From Pelagibacterales bacterium SAG-MED05 (lineage in GTDB: Bacteria > Pseudomonadota > Alphaproteobacteria > Pelagibacterales > Pelagibacteraceae), in contig JACWDC010000003.1 in assembly GCA_014654415.1 (NCBI GenBank), positions 42,255 through 106,254 on the forward strand: 64,000 nt of DNA. The letters are read 5' to 3'. A model generated the notes under the pieces. The model made no database searches, was not told where the DNA came from, and saw nothing but the letters and a program-made list of their open reading frames with translations. The translations under genes were made by a program, and so were the position numbers. This document shows positions 5,119-17,750 of this stretch, piece after piece; the first letter of the stretch is position 1, and each line of letters opens with the position of its first letter.

Positions 5119-6912
5119 GTGGAAAAAAAGTCTGAAATACTAGAAAATTTTAAAATTGCCATTGGTTCTACAGTAAAATCTTTATCAAATTCTGAGGATG
5201 TGGAAGTTTCATTCGGTGATCAAAATTCTCAATCAAAAAATAATTCAATTAAATTGCCAGAGATTGAGCAAGTAAATAACAAAATCAATTATAGTCAAAT
5301 TAGAGCATTGGCAGACTCAAAGTCTCTTAAATTAAGATTTAGCGATGAAAAAACTTTTAAGACATATGAACCTCATGGAAACATCTCAAAGAAATTATAT
5401 AGAATTGCTGAAAAAATTAGATGTGAAAAACTAGGGTCAGATCAATTTAAGGGGGTAAAAAATAACATAGAAAAATATTACCAAGAAAGAACCAATTCTT
5501 TAGATCTTAAAAACAGTGAAGATAAAATAATAGAATCTTTTGAAAATTATTTAAGAGTTAAGTTCTTTGCATCAAAAAACAGCAAAGAATTAGAAAAAAA
5601 ACTTAAGACATATCAAAAAGATTTAAATGAAAAATTTAAAGGAAAAATTAAACAACTAAACAATTTAACTCATGATCAAGCTCAATATAACTCAATTATT
5701 TCAGATTTAATTTCAAATATGAATTTAGATGAAAATCTGGAAAAAGAGGAAAAAAATGAAGATAATAAAGAAAGACAACAAAAAGACCAAAAAAATCAGG
5801 ATCAAAAAACAAAAGAAAAAGAACAAGAACAACAAGAAATGTCTATAGATTCTGGTGTTCCAGACTTAGAGGATCAAGCTAAGGAATCAGATCAAGAAGT
5901 AGAAGAAATTGAAATAGAAGATAAGTCTCAATCTGATTTTAGAAAAAATATTAGAAACAGTTTAGGAGACCTTAAATACAAATCTTATACAGAAGAATTT
6001 GATGAAATAATTAAAGCAACAGACTTAGAAAATGAAGAAGAGCTCATCAGGCTAAGAAAAAATTTAGATCAACAATTATTGCAGCTTAAAAATTTTGTTT
6101 CTAAACTTGCCAATAAACTTCAAAGAAAACTTTTAGCAAAACAAAATAGATCTTGGAATTTTGATTTAGAAGAAGGTTTGTTAGATAATTCAAAATTACC
6201 AAGAATAATAATCGATCCTTTTAATTCGCTTTCGTTTAAAAAAGAAAAAGATATCGAATTTAAGGATACTTTAGTTACAATTTTAATTGATAATTCAGGT
6301 TCTATGAGAGGCAAACCAATTTCCGTGGCTGCTATTTGCGCAGACATACTTGCTAGAACTTTAGAACGCTGTTCTGTTAAAGTAGAAATTTTAGGATTTA
6401 CTACTAAACATTGGAAGGGAGGTTCGTCCAGAGAAAAATGGATGAAAAATGATAAACCAAATTTACCCGGTAGATTAAATGATCTAAGACATATAATTTA
6501 TAAATCAGCTGATATGCCTTGGAGACAAGAAAAAAATAATATGGGTTTGATGTTAAAAGAGGGCCTACTAAAAGAAAATATTGACGGGGAAGCTTTAAAA
6601 TGGGCTTACAATAAAATGTCTAAAAGAAAAGAAGAAAGAAAAATTTTGATGGTAATTTCAGATGGAGCTCCAGTTGATGACTCAACATTGTCAACTAATT
6701 CAAGTGACTATTTAGAAGCTAATTTAAAAAATACTGTTAAATGGATTGAAAACAGAACGAATATAGAATTGTTAGCCATCGGCATTGGTCATGATGTAAC
6801 TCGATATTATAATCAAGCAATTAAAATTACAGATGTGCAAGATTTAGGTGATGTGATGATTAATCAATTAACTGATCTTTTTGTTGAAAAAAATAAAAAA
6901 ACTCTACATTAA
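5119..6912 (+). CDS. cobT: CobT-like VWA-domain protein (cobaltochelatase subunit family)
   Basis: Acidic central region, MIDAS-like [39 protein letters not shown]; follows cobS; GTG start. Confidence 0.87.
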
Positions 6913-8867: not shown

Positions 8868-10430
8868 TTACTTTATTTTATTATTAATTAAATTAATTGT
8901 TTCTTTTAGGCCAAAAAAACTAATAAAAAAACCCATTCTTGGCCCATCTTCTTCACCAAATAATACTTGATAGATTAATTTAAACCAATCTCGAAGACTT
9001 TTTTCGTAACCATTTTCTTTTCCCACAGAATATACAACAGTTTGAATATCCTCTGGATTTAATTTTTGATCAACCTTTTCTAATTTCAAAACTAAATTTT
9101 TTAAAGCTTCTTTTTCTTTATCATTTGGAATTTTAAATTTTTTATTTGGCTCTACTTTATCCTTGAAATAATTAATGGCATATTCAGTAAGACCATCTAA
9201 AATTGGGTAATTTTGAGGTTTTATTTCTTTATGAAATCTATTAATAAACTTCCATAATATTTCTTTATTGTCAGCATTACTAGATCCAACTAAATTTAAA
9301 AGCATAGAAAAAGGCATAACTGATTTTTCTTTTGGTGGTTTTCCATTATGCACATGCCACACTGGATTAATTATTTGATCTTTTTCTTTTTGGTTTGGGT
9401 ATTTTTCAATTAAAGACAAATATTCATCAACTGTTTTAGGAACAACTTCTGGGTAAAGCTTTTTAGCTCTTTTAGGATTGGGATACATATATAAAGATAG
9501 ACTTTCTGGCGATGCATATCTAAGCCATTGTTCAATCGATATACCGTTTCCTTTAGATTTAGATATCTTCTCACCTTTTTCATCTAAAAATAATTCATAG
9601 GCGAATCCATTCGGTGGAATTTTTCCTAACGCTCTACAAATTTTATTAGAAAGTATCGCGCTTTCAGTTAGATCTTTGCCATACATTTCAAAATCAACAT
9701 CAAATGTAAACCATCTCATTGCCCAATCAACTTTCCATTGTAGTTTGCAATTTCCATTTAAAATATTAGTTTCAAGTTTTTTATCATTGTTGTTGAAAAT
9801 AACTGTTCCTTTTTTTGCATCCATGCTTATTAATGGAATTTGTAAAACTTTACCTGTATCTGGACAAATTGGTAGAAAAGGACAGTAAGTTTTTCTTCTC
9901 TCCTCTCGAAGAGTGGGTAAAACGATATTCATAATCTCTTCATATTTTTCTAGAACTCTAATCAGGGAATCATTAAAAACACCTTCTTTGTAGTTTGAGG
10001 TCGAGCTTTTAAAAGTAAAATTAAAGTTAAATTTTTTTAAAAATTCTTTTAACATTTCATTGTTATGTTCACCAAAACTTCTATATTTACCAAAAGGATC
10101 TGGAATGTCTGTTAAAGGCTTTCCCAAATTTTTTTTTAAAACTTCATCATTAGGTATATTTTCTGGAACTTTTCTAAGTCCATCCATATCATCAGAAAAT
10201 GTAATTAACTCATGGTCAATTTTTTGAATATGTTTTAAAACATTAATCATCATGCTTGTTCTTGCAACCTCTCCAAAGGTTCCAATATGAGGTAAGCCGC
10301 TAGGACCATAACCTGTTTGAAAAGTAATTTTATTTTTAGCCTTAATTATATCTTTTCTATCTTTTAAAAGTTTTCTAATTTCTACAAAAGCCCAGGAAGA
10401 GGTTGATTGAATTAAGTTGTTATCAAGCAT
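8868..10430 (-). CDS. lysK: lysine--tRNA ligase, class I
   Basis: TGYGPSGLPHIGTFGEVARTSMM (HIGH-type), EKISKSKGNGIS (KMSKS-type); class I LysRS length and pattern. Confidence 0.9.
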   Translation of the reverse strand: MLDNNLIQSTSSWAFVEIRKLLKDRKDIIKAKNKITFQTGYGPSGLPHIGTFGEVARTSMMINVLKHIQKIDHELITFSDDMDGLRKVPENIPNDEVLKKNLGKPLTDIPDPFGKYRSFGEHNNEMLKEFLKKFNFNFTFKSSTSNYKEGVFNDSLIRVLEKYEEIMNIVLPTLREERRKTYCPFLPICPDTGKVLQIPLISMDAKKGTVIFNNNDKKLETNILNGNCKLQWKVDWAMRWFTFDVDFEMYGKDLTESAILSNKICRALGKIPPNGFAYELFLDEKGEKISKSKGNGISIEQWLRYASPESLSLYMYPNPKRAKKLYPEVVPKTVDEYLSLIEKYPNQKEKDQIINPVWHVHNGKPPKEKSVMPFSMLLNLVGSSNADNKEILWKFINRFHKEIKPQNYPILDGLTEYAINYFKDKVEPNKKFKIPNDKEKEALKNLVLKLEKVDQKLNPEDIQTVVYSVGKENGYEKSLRDWFKLIYQVLFGEEDGPRMGFFISFFGLKETINLINNKIK

Positions 10431-14094: not shown

Positions 14095-14192
14095 ATAGCA
14101 AAGGCAGCTTCAGTCTCCCTCCACTGCCCTTGAATTCAATTTAATTGATTCGAGCTTTTAATTTAAGACTCTTTTTAATTGTATGTTAATAA

Positions 14193-14429
14193 CTATTTTA
14201 ATAATTTTCTGTAGGCAAATATTACCGCAAATACAATTATCAATGCTGCTATACCTTGACTTCCCAAACTATTGAGTAGTCTAATTAAATTCTCAGTAAC
14301 TTGAGTGCCAAAAAAAGCAACATTAGGTCCAAATATTACTTCTGCAATAACTGATACAGCTAGTAAAAGAACACCGACTTCTAAGAAACTATTTAAATAA
14401 TATTTAATTTTAGATATCCATTTATTCAT
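14193..14429 (-). CDS. small hydrophobic membrane protein (78 aa), paralogue of 14539..14754
   Basis: ORF track; aligns with 71-aa neighbour over ...GPNVAFFGTQVTENLIRLLNSLGSQGIAALIIVFAVIFAYRK. Confidence 0.65.
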   Translation of the reverse strand: MNKWISKIKYYLNSFLEVGVLLLAVSVIAEVIFGPNVAFFGTQVTENLIRLLNSLGSQGIAALIIVFAVIFAYRKLLK

Positions 14430-14446
14430 AATTTTATCTCTTCACA

Positions 14447-14497
14447 CTTATTGCCCCGACTTAAATCAATAAGAGGAGGAAAAGTTGGGGCAATAAG
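14447..14497 (-). other. 16-bp hairpin between the two small membrane-protein genes
   Basis: CTTATTGCCCCGACTT (14447-14462) / AAGTTGGGGCAATAAG (14482-14497), one G.T position; 19-nt loop. Confidence 0.7.
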
Positions 14498-14538
14498 CAA
14501 ATTGCAGTTACTTTGGGAGTTCACTGCGAGTATTTTAT

Positions 14539-14754
14539 TTACTTATAAAATCCTAGGATGACTATAGCTGCTACTAAACCAACTATTCCCGCATCCCCTA
14601 GAGCTTGCACTAGTCCAATAATATTGTCGGCTATTCCGCCAACAAATGGAACATTGCCGCCCAATAATGAAACAACGATACCTAAACCAAGTAGTGATAT
14701 CACCACTGAAGTTAAAGAGTTTACCGTTGAATTTAATCCTGATAACATTTTCAT
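14539..14754 (-). CDS. small hydrophobic membrane protein (71 aa)
   Basis: MKMLSGLNSTVNSLTSVVISLLGLGIVVSLLGGNVPFVGGIADNIIGLVQALGDAGIVGLVAAIVILGFYK; SD-like AGAGAGG upstream. Confidence 0.7.
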   Translation of the reverse strand: MKMLSGLNSTVNSLTSVVISLLGLGIVVSLLGGNVPFVGGIADNIIGLVQALGDAGIVGLVAAIVILGFYK

Positions 14755-14782
14755 AGCTACCTCTCTTTTTTGTTCACAGTAA

Positions 14783-14806
14783 ACAAAACGAACTGATTCG
14801 TTTTGT
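14783..14806 (-). promoter_or_regulatory. 5'-leader hairpin (perfect 10-bp stem, 4-nt loop)
   Basis: ACAAAACGAA-CTGA-TTCGTTTTGT, located between the SD of ORF 14539..14754 and its upstream region. Confidence 0.7.
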
Positions 14807-14928
14807 ATTTAATACTTTATCATTTTCGGAATCCAACATCCTCTATTAAGGTTGTTCATTTTGAGTCTTTGTGACTCATTATTGAGCTATTATTAATAAT
14901 TTTGACTCATTTTGGTCATTACTAATAA

Positions 14929-15002
14929 TGGCGGAGAGAGTGGGATTCGAACCCACGAAACGGTTTCCCGTTTACACACTTTCCAAGCGTGCGCCTTCAA
15001 CC
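14929..15002 (-). repeat. truncated tRNA-Ser copy 1 (3' 74 nt incl. CCA; lacks 5' acceptor/D-arm side)
   Basis: tggcggagagagtgggattcgaacccacgaaacggtttcccgtttacacactttccaagcgtgcgccttcaacc; 3 differences from intact tRNA 17661-17734. Confidence 0.9.
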
Positions 15003-15056
15003 TAGCGGCTTAGAATCGTTGATTAACTTTCAATTTATTTTTAAGACTTTAAAAAA

Positions 15057-15088
15057 ATTGGTCTAGCGACGACCATATGGCGACCAAT
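15057..15088 (-). terminator. Rho-independent terminator of autotransporter gene
   Basis: Minus strand ATTGGTC ... GACCAAT followed by TTTTTTT; just past stop of 15094..16833. Confidence 0.65.
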
Positions 15089-15093
15089 CTTAA

Positions 15094-16833
15094 TTAAAAA
15101 TTTAGTTTAAATCCTAAATTTCCACTTAAGCTTTTAACATCCTGATTAGTATTTTTTGCAGAAATACTAGCAGTAAATTTTCCATTATCTGTAATCTTTT
15201 TTTCGTAACCTAAATTAGCAACTAATGAAATCTCTCTTGTAAGAGCATTATCTTGTTTGTACGTGGCGCTTGTGCCATTAATTGAATAAACTTGAGATTT
15301 GTCTCCTACCAAATTTCTAAAATCTAATAACCAACCTAGATTAAAATTATTATTATCATTATTTATAAGATTGTATTTATCAGAAAAAAATACAGACACG
15401 TTTCCCACTTTTCTATTTCTCCATGAATAATATTTGCTCTCATCATAACTTGGAGTAATTGAAAAACTTCCAGTTAATCCAACATTTGGAATAAGCTTGG
15501 GGTTAGTTTTTGTTACACCAGAATGTACTTCGAAAGTTTGGTAATTACTGTCTATATCTAATTTACCTGATGATGTTGTGTTTGTTAAAATTGTTCTCTC
15601 ACCCTCTTTTAAAGTAATTCCACCTAAAATAAAAGAGTCTAAGTTTAAAAGATATTTATTGCTTGGAAAATACAATCCAGCAGAAACATTTTGATATGTT
15701 ATTTTATGATCTTTTTCAAAATCTTGAACTCCAGCTTCAAAAGCAAGAATGAAATCTGAATTTTCTAAAGGTGAAATTAAATTAGCTCCCACATTAAATA
15801 AATCGTACTCTAAAGCCAGATTTGTAGCATGTCCTTTTCGATTTAAAAGAGAGGTATAAGTTTCTCCCCAACCATTACCATCATATAAATTTTCTGAGTC
15901 TTTGTATCTGTTTAAAAATTGTCTTATGTTTAGAGATTTATAACTTAAAAGTTCATCTAACGTCTCGCTTCCTCCTTGACCAACTGATCCTGCCGATCCT
16001 TTTACTACTTGATTGCCATCTAAATCTTGTAAAGTGAAGCTACCTGCAGTTTCATAAAAGTAACCTTGACCAACACCATGTTGAAATTTTAATGTGTTTC
16101 CAGTTGTTGTTCCTCCATCAATTTTACCAACTAAAATACTTTTATCTTTAAGTGTAATAGTGTTGTTGTTACCTACTATTGCTATACCTGCATTGGAGGG
16201 GCTGTTTCTATTATCTATAGTCCCGCTGTTAACTAATGTTGAACTTGTATCTATTTGTACTGTTGCAAATGTTGATGTGTTGTAAATAATTCCTCCAGAC
16301 TCATTTGTAAAAGTTGCATCTGTTGCTCCATCATAAAAATATATAGCTCTGTTCTCCACACTATAAATTGTGCCTGCATTAGTAATTGATGCACCAGTAG
16401 CATCCTCAGTCCCAACAGATTGTTGTACAATTGCATTTGTATCGGCAAATATTAAACCTCCGGATTTATTTGTAATAGTAGCATTTTGAGAGTCTTGTAG
16501 TTGAATTGCTTTGGATGAAGTCGCTTCAATGGTTCCGGAGTTGGTCACAGTCAAACCACTTGTCTCTCTCCCCATTATAGCGTTGCTTTTACCTTGAATA
16601 ACTCCACCAGACTCTACAACTACCGTAGCATTATCAATTTCATTTCCAGCAGCAATATATCCTCGAACAATATTATTTAAATCGCCATCGAGCGTCCCGC
16701 TTATAGTTAGTGTTGAGCTTGCTTGAAGATCTTCCCTAGTTGCTTGCGTTCCAGAAATTTCGACATCGGCAGCATATAACTGCTTAGGTGAATTCAAATA
16801 GATAAAAATTATTACTAATATTAAAATACGCAT
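15094..16833 (-). CDS. autotransporter-like outer membrane protein (beta-helix passenger + C-terminal beta-barrel)
   Basis: Signal peptide; repeated N(S/A)GTI / ESGGxI passenger motifs; ~280-aa C-terminal region of alternating strands ending in ...GNLGFKLNF (terminal Phe). Confidence 0.8.
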
Positions 16834-16899
16834 AATCTTTTATTTTTTTAATAGGTATACCTTAATATTTATAAAACTGAAGCATTTCAAAATGGATAT

Positions 16900-16976
16900 A
16901 AATGGCGGAGAGAGAGGGATTCGAACCCTCGAAACGGTTTCCCGTTTACACGCTTTCCAAGCGTGCGCCTTCAACC
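16900..16976 (-). repeat. truncated tRNA-Ser copy 2 (perfect 77-bp direct repeat of 17658..17734)
   Basis: aaatggcggagagagagggattcgaaccctcgaaacggtttcccgtttacacgctttccaagcgtgcgccttcaacc identical to tRNA 3' part; then diverges (tagcactc vs actcggcc). Confidence 0.93.
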
Positions 16977-17064
16977 TAGCACTCTAAAGTTATTAATTAG
17001 TGCTAATTAATTTTTTGAAATTTGATAAAATTTTAGCTGGTGACAGCAATACGGAGTCAGACAT

Positions 17065-17352
17065 TTATTGAGCACGATATCCTTTTTGAATCATGCATCT
17101 ATCATAAGCTGCATTATTTTGAGCTATACGTTCCATAGCTATACCAAGTTCATCTGGGGCACACATTAAAGGATTTCTGCAAATATAAGTTGGAGCTACT
17201 GCGTTAGCAGTTGCACCACAATATCTTTTATCAGTATCTAAATTAGAGTTATTCCCAGATTGATGTGACCAGGTAGTTGCACAACTAGTAAATAAAACAC
17301 CTACCGCAAGCAAAGCTAATATTTTGTGTATTCTCATATAAAGCACCAACAA
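17065..17352 (-). CDS. small lipoprotein-like Cys-containing protein (start possibly at 17337)
   Basis: MRIHKILALLAVGVLFTSCATTWSHQSG... lipobox-like FTSC, then YCG..ICRNPLMC..RCMIQKGYRAQ. Confidence 0.65.
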   Translation of the reverse strand: MLVLYMRIHKILALLAVGVLFTSCATTWSHQSGNNSNLDTDKRYCGATANAVAPTYICRNPLMCAPDELGIAMERIAQNNAAYDRCMIQKGYRAQ

Positions 17353-17354
17353 AC

Positions 17355-17564
17355 TTAACCGTTAATTGATAACGGACAAAGATCAGTACTTTTTAGTGTT
17401 AAAGCTCTATCTGATCCTAAGCAATCGTATATGCAAATTTTGTTAAATCCAGATGTGTATTCACCTTTTTTAAAACAAGTTGCAGCATTTGCTATAGCTA
17501 TAGGATAAGCATAACTAATCAAAGTGATAGTTATAAAAGCTATTATGTTTCTAAGAGTTTTCAT
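17355..17564 (-). CDS. small secreted Cys-rich protein (69 aa)
   Basis: MKTLRNIIAFITITLISYAYPIAIANAATCFKKGEYTSGFNKICIYDCLGSDRALTLKSTDLCPLSING; signal peptide; 4 Cys in mature part; 2 bp from next ORF. Confidence 0.65.
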   Translation of the reverse strand: MKTLRNIIAFITITLISYAYPIAIANAATCFKKGEYTSGFNKICIYDCLGSDRALTLKSTDLCPLSING

Positions 17565-17660
17565 AAAAATTAAAAAAGCTTAGCAAATCTTAATCTAGAC
17601 AGCAATACGTCATCAAAAATAAATTTTAATATATTTGAGGTTGTATAAGGCTACTTGAAA

Positions 17661-17750
17661 TGGCGGAGAGAGAGGGATTCGAACCCTCGAAACGGTTTCC
17701 CGTTTACACGCTTTCCAAGCGTGCGCCTTCAACCACTCGGCCACCTCTCC
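17661..17750 (-). tRNA. tRNA-Ser(GGA), intact, CCA encoded
   Basis: GGAGAGGTGGCCGAGTGGTTGAAGGCGCACGCTTGGAAAGCGTGTAAACGGGAAACCGTTTCGAGGGTTCGAATCCCTCTCTCTCCGCCA; anticodon loop TTGGAAA. Confidence 0.97.

Follow-up and report, generated by a model that had tools for sequence, protein, structure and literature searches.

Annotation with ARAGORN identified an intact tRNA-Ser(GGA) gene in the window, the 64,000-nucleotide stretch of the SAR11 genome Pelagibacterales bacterium SAG-MED05 analysed here, and its 3' part was found to recur in two truncated copies on its 3' side, with spacings of 758 bp and 1974 bp between successive copies and tRNA (Table 1). Both copies end after TTCAACC, and TAGC comes next in both. 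A sequence-only reading of this DNA had proposed the tRNA gene, a far 74-nt copy with three differences, the common end with its junction, and both spacings, all of which were confirmed. The perfect near copy that it had described was also recovered, but with a length of 74 nt and not 77 nt, the extra AAA being flank bases common by coincidence.

Table 1. Features of the tRNA-Ser(GGA) locus, in window coordinates.
Feature	Position	Strand	Basis or remark
Chromosomal 3' flank on the NlpC/SH3 gene side of the slot, conserved	14100..14192	.	Adjoins tRNA-Ser directly where the slot is empty
Resident segment C, two small hydrophobic ORFs (78 and 71 aa), empty-site allele	14193..14928	-	Alignment with G101
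Islet B, 1974 bp, left attP end and tRNA copy	14929..16902	-	
Far tRNA-Ser 3' copy, 74 nt	14929..15002	-	100% identical to genus g2 tRNA-Ser(GGA), differs from host's
Left attP end of B, arm GACGACCATATGGCGACC at 15068-15085	15003..15092	.	R1 E 2.9e-18
Cargo B, 579 aa, autotransporter-like surface protein	15094..16833	-	ORF; assigned by eye
Islet A, complete two-armed mini-islet, 758 bp	16903..17660	-	tRNA copy at one end, intact tRNA at the other
Near tRNA-Ser 3' copy, 74 nt	16903..16976	-	100% identical to intact gene
Left attP end of A, comprising the TAGC junction, a spacer and the arm GACAGCAATACGGAGTC at 17042-17058	16977..17061	.	R1 E 1.9e-20
Cargo A1, 95 aa, lipoprotein-like small secreted protein	17065..17352	-	Only weak PHROG match (function unknown)
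Cargo A2, 69 aa, signal-peptide-like small protein	17355..17564	-	
Right attP end of A, arm GACAGCAATACGTCATC at 17598-17614	17586..17660	.	End model
Intact tRNA-Ser(GGA), insertion target, host (g1) type	17661..17750	-	ARAGORN; most of the 120 other loci match it at 100%

A second "tRNA-Ser" call by ARAGORN, at 16903-16985, corresponds to the truncated near copy. Outside this locus, the genome search returned only a different tRNA-Ser as a match to the tRNA segment (73%), and the occurrence of three copies within 2.8 kb thus excludes chance. The far copy differs from the window's intact gene at 3 positions over 74 nt, and these agree letter for letter with the tRNA-Ser(GGA) of g2, one of the other SAR11 genera (g2, g3, and g9) compared with g1, the genus of the window; two of the three form a compensated T-stem pair. 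Across its full 74 nt, the far copy showed no mismatch to the intact tRNA-Ser(GGA) in 14 genus g2 genomes, while its three changes were found in none of the intact g1 tRNA-Ser genes examined. Judged from these alignments, the three differences represent genus g2 sequence and not decay. In genus g1 as a whole, 22 full copies of the 74-nt segment were found in 21 genomes, together with one decayed copy.

The two islets delimited by these copies differ in completeness. Comparison with the end models recovered both ends of islet A, at E 3e-15 on the left and E 2e-8 on the right (islet A was itself among the sequences used to build the models), and the CAATACG arm subtype is present at both of them. 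For islet B, the same comparison gave no recognisable right arm in the window. The earlier proposal of two islets, each ended by a tRNA copy, therefore holds for both copies, but only A is a complete two-armed unit. Cargo B was characterized by eye as having a signal peptide, repeats, a C-terminal barrel-like part and a final Phe, and had no match in Pfam, NCBIfam or PHROG. It is present at the same site in many relatives, and two-armed forms of B, 2072-2074 bp long, occur in the genomes G089, G139, and G132. Some other copies of B (loci L084, L105, and L180, among others) are without the left arm and tRNA copy, and homologous recombination may thus explain part of its spread. The left end of B, which in the window lies beside a g2-type copy, is identical to left ends adjoining g1-type copies in other genomes, indicating that tRNA copy and element have been re-assorted at least once.

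Occupancy of the site was measured as the distance from the NlpC gene to the tRNA in 121 g1 loci including the window, 116 of which were measurable. The site was empty in 53 of the 116 (103-280 bp) and occupied in 63 (561-8366 bp), and inserts ended by an intact 74-nt tRNA copy were present in 21 g1 genomes. Among the 121 g1 loci, the window was the only one with two tRNA copies in one genome; tandem copy pairs were found elsewhere in G198 (genus g2) and G268 (genus g3). The slot is empty in the near relative G015, and in G101 segment C abuts the intact tRNA directly, so that this genome shows the allele of the window exactly as it would have been before insertion. Empty, one-insert and multi-insert states, which the sequence-only reading had named as those to be sought by alignment across relatives, were all found, and the arrangement is thus not a fixed one.

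Segment C itself, which has no att ends, also occurs in about ten to twelve genomes from two genera, and its interpretation as a third islet was dropped, as the tRNA copy never accompanies it in relatives. Its ORFs (14193-14754) are paralogous-looking and gave no credible family match. In three further loci (L077, L082, and L093), the gap between NlpC and the tRNA is taken up by larger inserts (5.6-8.4 kb), whose genes are of envelope polysaccharide, acyl-carrier and glycosyltransferase type; tRNA copies and complete arms are missing from them. G081 (L217) has a decayed islet, both ends of which can still be recognised, beside degenerate tRNA-Ser fragments instead of an intact gene. In G210 (genus g9; L230, 1501-2300), a separate 733-bp islet carries a 67-nt tRNA copy, one small ORF and differing arm repeats (GGCGGCGCTGTGACGGCGC).

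Alignment of the inserts revealed that more than 10 unrelated cargoes have common left and right ends, placed at a fixed distance from the tRNA copy and the intact tRNA, respectively. The ends comprise the junction TAGCCTTCTAGAATTATTGATTAG, spacers and one arm-like repeat per side, the left being GACGMCCATRCGGAGTC and the right GACGMCCATAYGACGMCCA, a direct repeat with 11-bp spacing. The arm motif takes the form GACGMCCATRYGACGMCCA, with CTGCCGTCRCTGTGCCGTCGG as the genus g2 form; genera g2, g3, and g9 have a related end architecture with other sequences. From element to element, the left arm varies together with the right (Mantel r 0.58, p 0.0001), and this was also observed on 8 distinct cargoes (r 0.49, p 0.017). 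In the 169 g1 genomes, the arm pattern occurred 8 times in 7 genomes, always at the tRNA-Ser(GGA) locus, while the reversed pattern, used as a control, gave 0 matches. Strong matches to the left-end model were likewise confined within the genus to this locus, bar the decayed element of G081, and one further match was a genus g9 element. Both ends and the tRNA copy are intact in well over a dozen genomes and with more than 10 cargoes. By its organization, a core formed by the tRNA 3' end with flanking arm-type repeats, this structure is a predicted attP of the kind found in tyrosine-recombinase integrative elements. The target differs from that of IMEX, which use XerC/XerD at dif.

Among the proteins encoded by inserts of the slot are trypsin-like secreted proteases (Pfam E 2e-27), autotransporter-like proteins, small secreted or membrane proteins, and a type II restriction enzyme of the methyl-directed kind (PADLOC E 1e-30). 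The last of these was observed in the islet of G033 (L064) beside a second possible nuclease, indicating that defence genes travel as cargo. Genes for replication, packaging, regulation or interference with a helper were not found in the cargoes scanned. Cargo and tRNA point the same way in 13 of 15 distinct cases (hand count, p 0.004); in the trypsin family, the arm extends over the start of the called reading frame. As the cargo usually reads in the direction of the tRNA and starts close behind it, expression by read-through from the tRNA promoter is plausible.

The movement of the inserts was further examined in relation to their flanks. The B copies of G089, G139, and G132 are 99.3-99.7% identical, with differences at 0-1% of four-fold sites, whereas in the flanking NlpC, AmpG, TrkH, and LepA genes 50-68% of four-fold sites differ. 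Flanks about 80% identical surround these near-identical inserts, and identity falls at the element boundaries. Such a pattern is not what homologous exchange of the surrounding region would produce, and the inserts therefore move independently of that region. Movement also extends across genera: a 1258-bp insert of G216 (genus g9) is 99.4% identical to one in G163 (genus g1), and in G216 a g1-type tRNA copy stands beside a g9-type intact tRNA, with flanks unrelated to those of G163. This combination of copy and tRNA types places the crossover at the CCA side, in the last 12-13 bp of the tRNA, and indicates that the fragment came with the element. A 191-aa cargo is, in addition, 91% identical between G079 (genus g1) and G222 (genus g2), compared with 55% for NlpC between the two genera.

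The distal fragment had earlier been taken for the displaced 3' end of the host gene. The foreign-genus copies correct this assumption, since they show that the element can bring the fragment. For the far copy of the window, arrival with the element is the simplest reading, although an earlier g2-derived element that changed the 3' half of the tRNA, followed by standard displacement, would also account for it, in which case a crossover in the anticodon loop would fit. Two histories thus fit the far copy, and the window by itself agrees with either crossover position. The 34A tRNA variant of G076 was considered as a second crossover diagnostic and set aside as recurrent and uninformative.

In agreement with the sequence-only reading, no ORF between the tRNA copies of the window matched a recombinase. 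None was found in any insert scanned, and the shortest inserts, of 514 bp, hold a single ORF. The only Phage_integrase match of the genome is a 320-aa protein, Xer-like in length. The 169 g1 genomes contain 14 non-Xer integrases (PF00589), located at tRNA-Leu(TAG), tRNA-Leu(CAA), tRNA-Pro or tRNA-Val or with no tRNA nearby, and none near tRNA-Ser(GGA); given these locations and arms that do not match, they were rejected as helpers. Mobilisation in trans is thus the probable conclusion by elimination, with no recombinase in the inserts, one Xer-like protein in the genome, and no integrase near this tRNA in the 169 genomes. The earlier proposal of sequentially integrated, cargo-only cassettes mobilised in trans accordingly gained support from the polymorphism, the cargo content, the att-like ends and the flank-independent movement, its trans component being reached by elimination only.

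The search for a helper integrase with matching arms covered 169 genus genomes, 397 family genomes, the phage collection and viral contigs, and gave no candidate. Scans of the viral contigs with the tRNA core, the core plus junction, the g1 and g2 arms, gapped right- and left-end patterns and cargo B gave nothing relevant; the two core matches (L047 and L048) are tRNA-Ser genes in GC-rich non-SAR11 contigs. The contig L047, from a GC-rich bacterium, contains a tyrosine integrase, and the fragment of a second integrase adjoins its tRNA-Ser(GGA) (features at 5508-6659 and 9797-9886), which may be an example of integrases using this tRNA in other bacteria. Searches of the phage collection returned unrelated phage tRNA-Ser genes only, and the scan of genome contigs gave 11 SAR11 loci, all within those from the genome searches. 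Integrase-bearing SAR11 elements were repeatedly observed at tRNA-Leu(TAG) (L285, L287, L289, and L293), with two tRNA-Leu(TAG) predictions around the junction in L287.

The tRNA-Ser(GGA) gene is therefore very probably a one-sided slot for minimal integrase-less cassettes that are mobilised in trans by a tyrosine recombinase and pass between genera. These cassettes measure 0.5-2 kb (up to 3.3 kb in other genera) and hold about one to three cargo genes. The left end comprises arm repeats together with the 74-nt copy of the tRNA 3' part, and at the right end arm repeats follow directly on the CCA. In the proposed mechanism, a tyrosine recombinase would be supplied in trans by a temperate or abortively integrating pelagiphage, by another mobile element or by DNA arriving with one, and would bind the arms of a circular cassette, whose tRNA segment would pair with the chromosomal gene before the crossover. 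For G216, the crossover would fall in the last 12-13 bp (CTCTCTCCGCCA), leaving the host gene whole and the tRNA copy distal. Each new cassette would enter between the tRNA and the previous one, generating a tandem array ordered by age; in the window, segment C would have been resident, followed by B with its g2 tRNA fragment, and A would have entered last. A broader reading, advanced tentatively as possible but short of probable, is that SAR11 sustains an integron-like but unrelated cassette economy, in which a dedicated helper captures recombinase-less cassettes serially behind the promoter of tRNA-Ser(GGA). This helper would be a pelagiphage or another integrase that recognises the arms in a genus-specific way, and the tRNA fragment would serve each cassette as a passport of the genus it last left.

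Other explanations were weighed against the trans-mobilised slot. SAR11 recombines heavily, and the inserts could have spread by homologous recombination between the conserved flanking genes and the tRNA, with no present-day site-specific recombinase, which would agree with the mosaic att-less forms of B and with the larger envelope gene sets, of up to 8.4 kb, that occupy the same site without att ends. This route is very unlikely as the general one, since NlpC, only about 100 bp from the tRNA when the slot is empty, and LepA are as diverged as the rest while the insert is near-identical, G163 and G216 have only the element in common, and recombination of this kind would not keep co-varying arms at both ends of unrelated cargoes.

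It is also unlikely that the inserts are CIME-like, immobile remnants of integrase-bearing islands or prophages that decayed and lost the integrase. CIMEs and tandem accretion are well documented (PMC5704250), and the B copies lacking one or both ends, the single armed end of B in the window and the decayed element with degenerate tRNA in G081 would suit such a history; remnants would, however, hardly yield 99% identical copies across lineages with saturated flanks and even across genera, nor ends and tRNA copies still intact in so many genomes and cargoes, and no integrase-bearing parent occurs at tRNA-Ser(GGA) in the 169 genomes. The copies, being partial tRNA genes in tandem, also resemble truncated pseudogenes produced by local duplication without mobility, an origin that carries almost no probability: it is refuted by the presence/absence polymorphism and by copies matching other genera, and it is contradicted as well by the empty sites, the common arms and the recurrence with different cargo.

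SAR11 are the most abundant bacteria of the ocean and combine small, streamlined genomes and few known mobile elements with a large flexible gene pool. The tRNA cassette slot offers a concrete and testable route for gene flow in this group, and the 99%-identical inserts together with the genus type of the fragment point to recent transfer between genera. The conserved arms provide a handle for the search for the helper integrase and for mining cassettes in metagenomes, while the cargo (autotransporter-like proteins, trypsin-like proteases, restriction enzyme, and small lipoproteins) points to surface and defence functions.

Among known systems, CIMEs are att-flanked, integrase-less elements stacked at a tRNA 3' end and described as decayed ICEs/IMEs, such as those related to ICESt1 (PMC5704250). 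The SAR11 inserts are similarly att-flanked (B of the window at one armed end), without integrase or transfer gene and in tandem at a tRNA 3' end, but they differ in being 0.5-2 kb, near-identical independent units in many lineages and genera; the 169 genus and 397 family genomes yielded no integrase-bearing relative with the insert arms that could be an ICE/IME parent. Ca. Actinomarinales are reported to have additive flexible-island cassettes at tRNAs, with inter-genus transfer that is older, at about 75% similarity (PMC7771536), and Methylopumilus fGI-2 has gene cassettes at a tRNA with direct repeats (PMC10872708). These resemble the SAR11 inserts as small cassettes of streamlined aquatic bacteria with direct repeats of a partial tRNA gene, and differ in belonging to another phylum or class and using other tRNAs, while the SAR11 inter-genus copy is 99.4% identical. 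Conserved arms, a foreign-genus tRNA fragment and an analysis of the lack of integrase do not appear in the portions of these two descriptions compared (PMC7771536, PMC10872708).

Tycheposons of Prochlorococcus (Hackl et al., 2023), as described in papers citing them (PMC10872708, PMC11389934), are also cargo elements at tRNA genes of marine oligotrophs, but are 4-200 kb and associated with a tyrosine recombinase, whereas the SAR11 inserts are 0.5-2 kb without one. With integron cassettes and CALINs (PMC11389934), they would have in common promoterless-looking cargo, the newest unit nearest the fixed end, and a recombinase in trans. Their sites, however, are made of a tRNA and arm repeats, an organization resembling that of lambda-type integrases, and no attC site or IntI was noted. 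PICMIs, an example of phage satellites, are small marine hitcher elements that use a helper according to the abstract of PMC10803314, a mode of spread proposed here for the SAR11 inserts too; these differ in often having a single cargo gene, and the cargoes scanned contained none for replication, packaging or regulation. Integrase-encoding tRNA elements carry an integrase of their own, which the SAR11 inserts lack. Compared with these att-flanked elements, with tycheposons judged through the citing papers, what appears new in the SAR11 inserts is their minimal size, the arms that co-vary across unrelated cargoes, the lack of an integrase-bearing relative at the site, and the tRNA fragments of donor genera that they carry.
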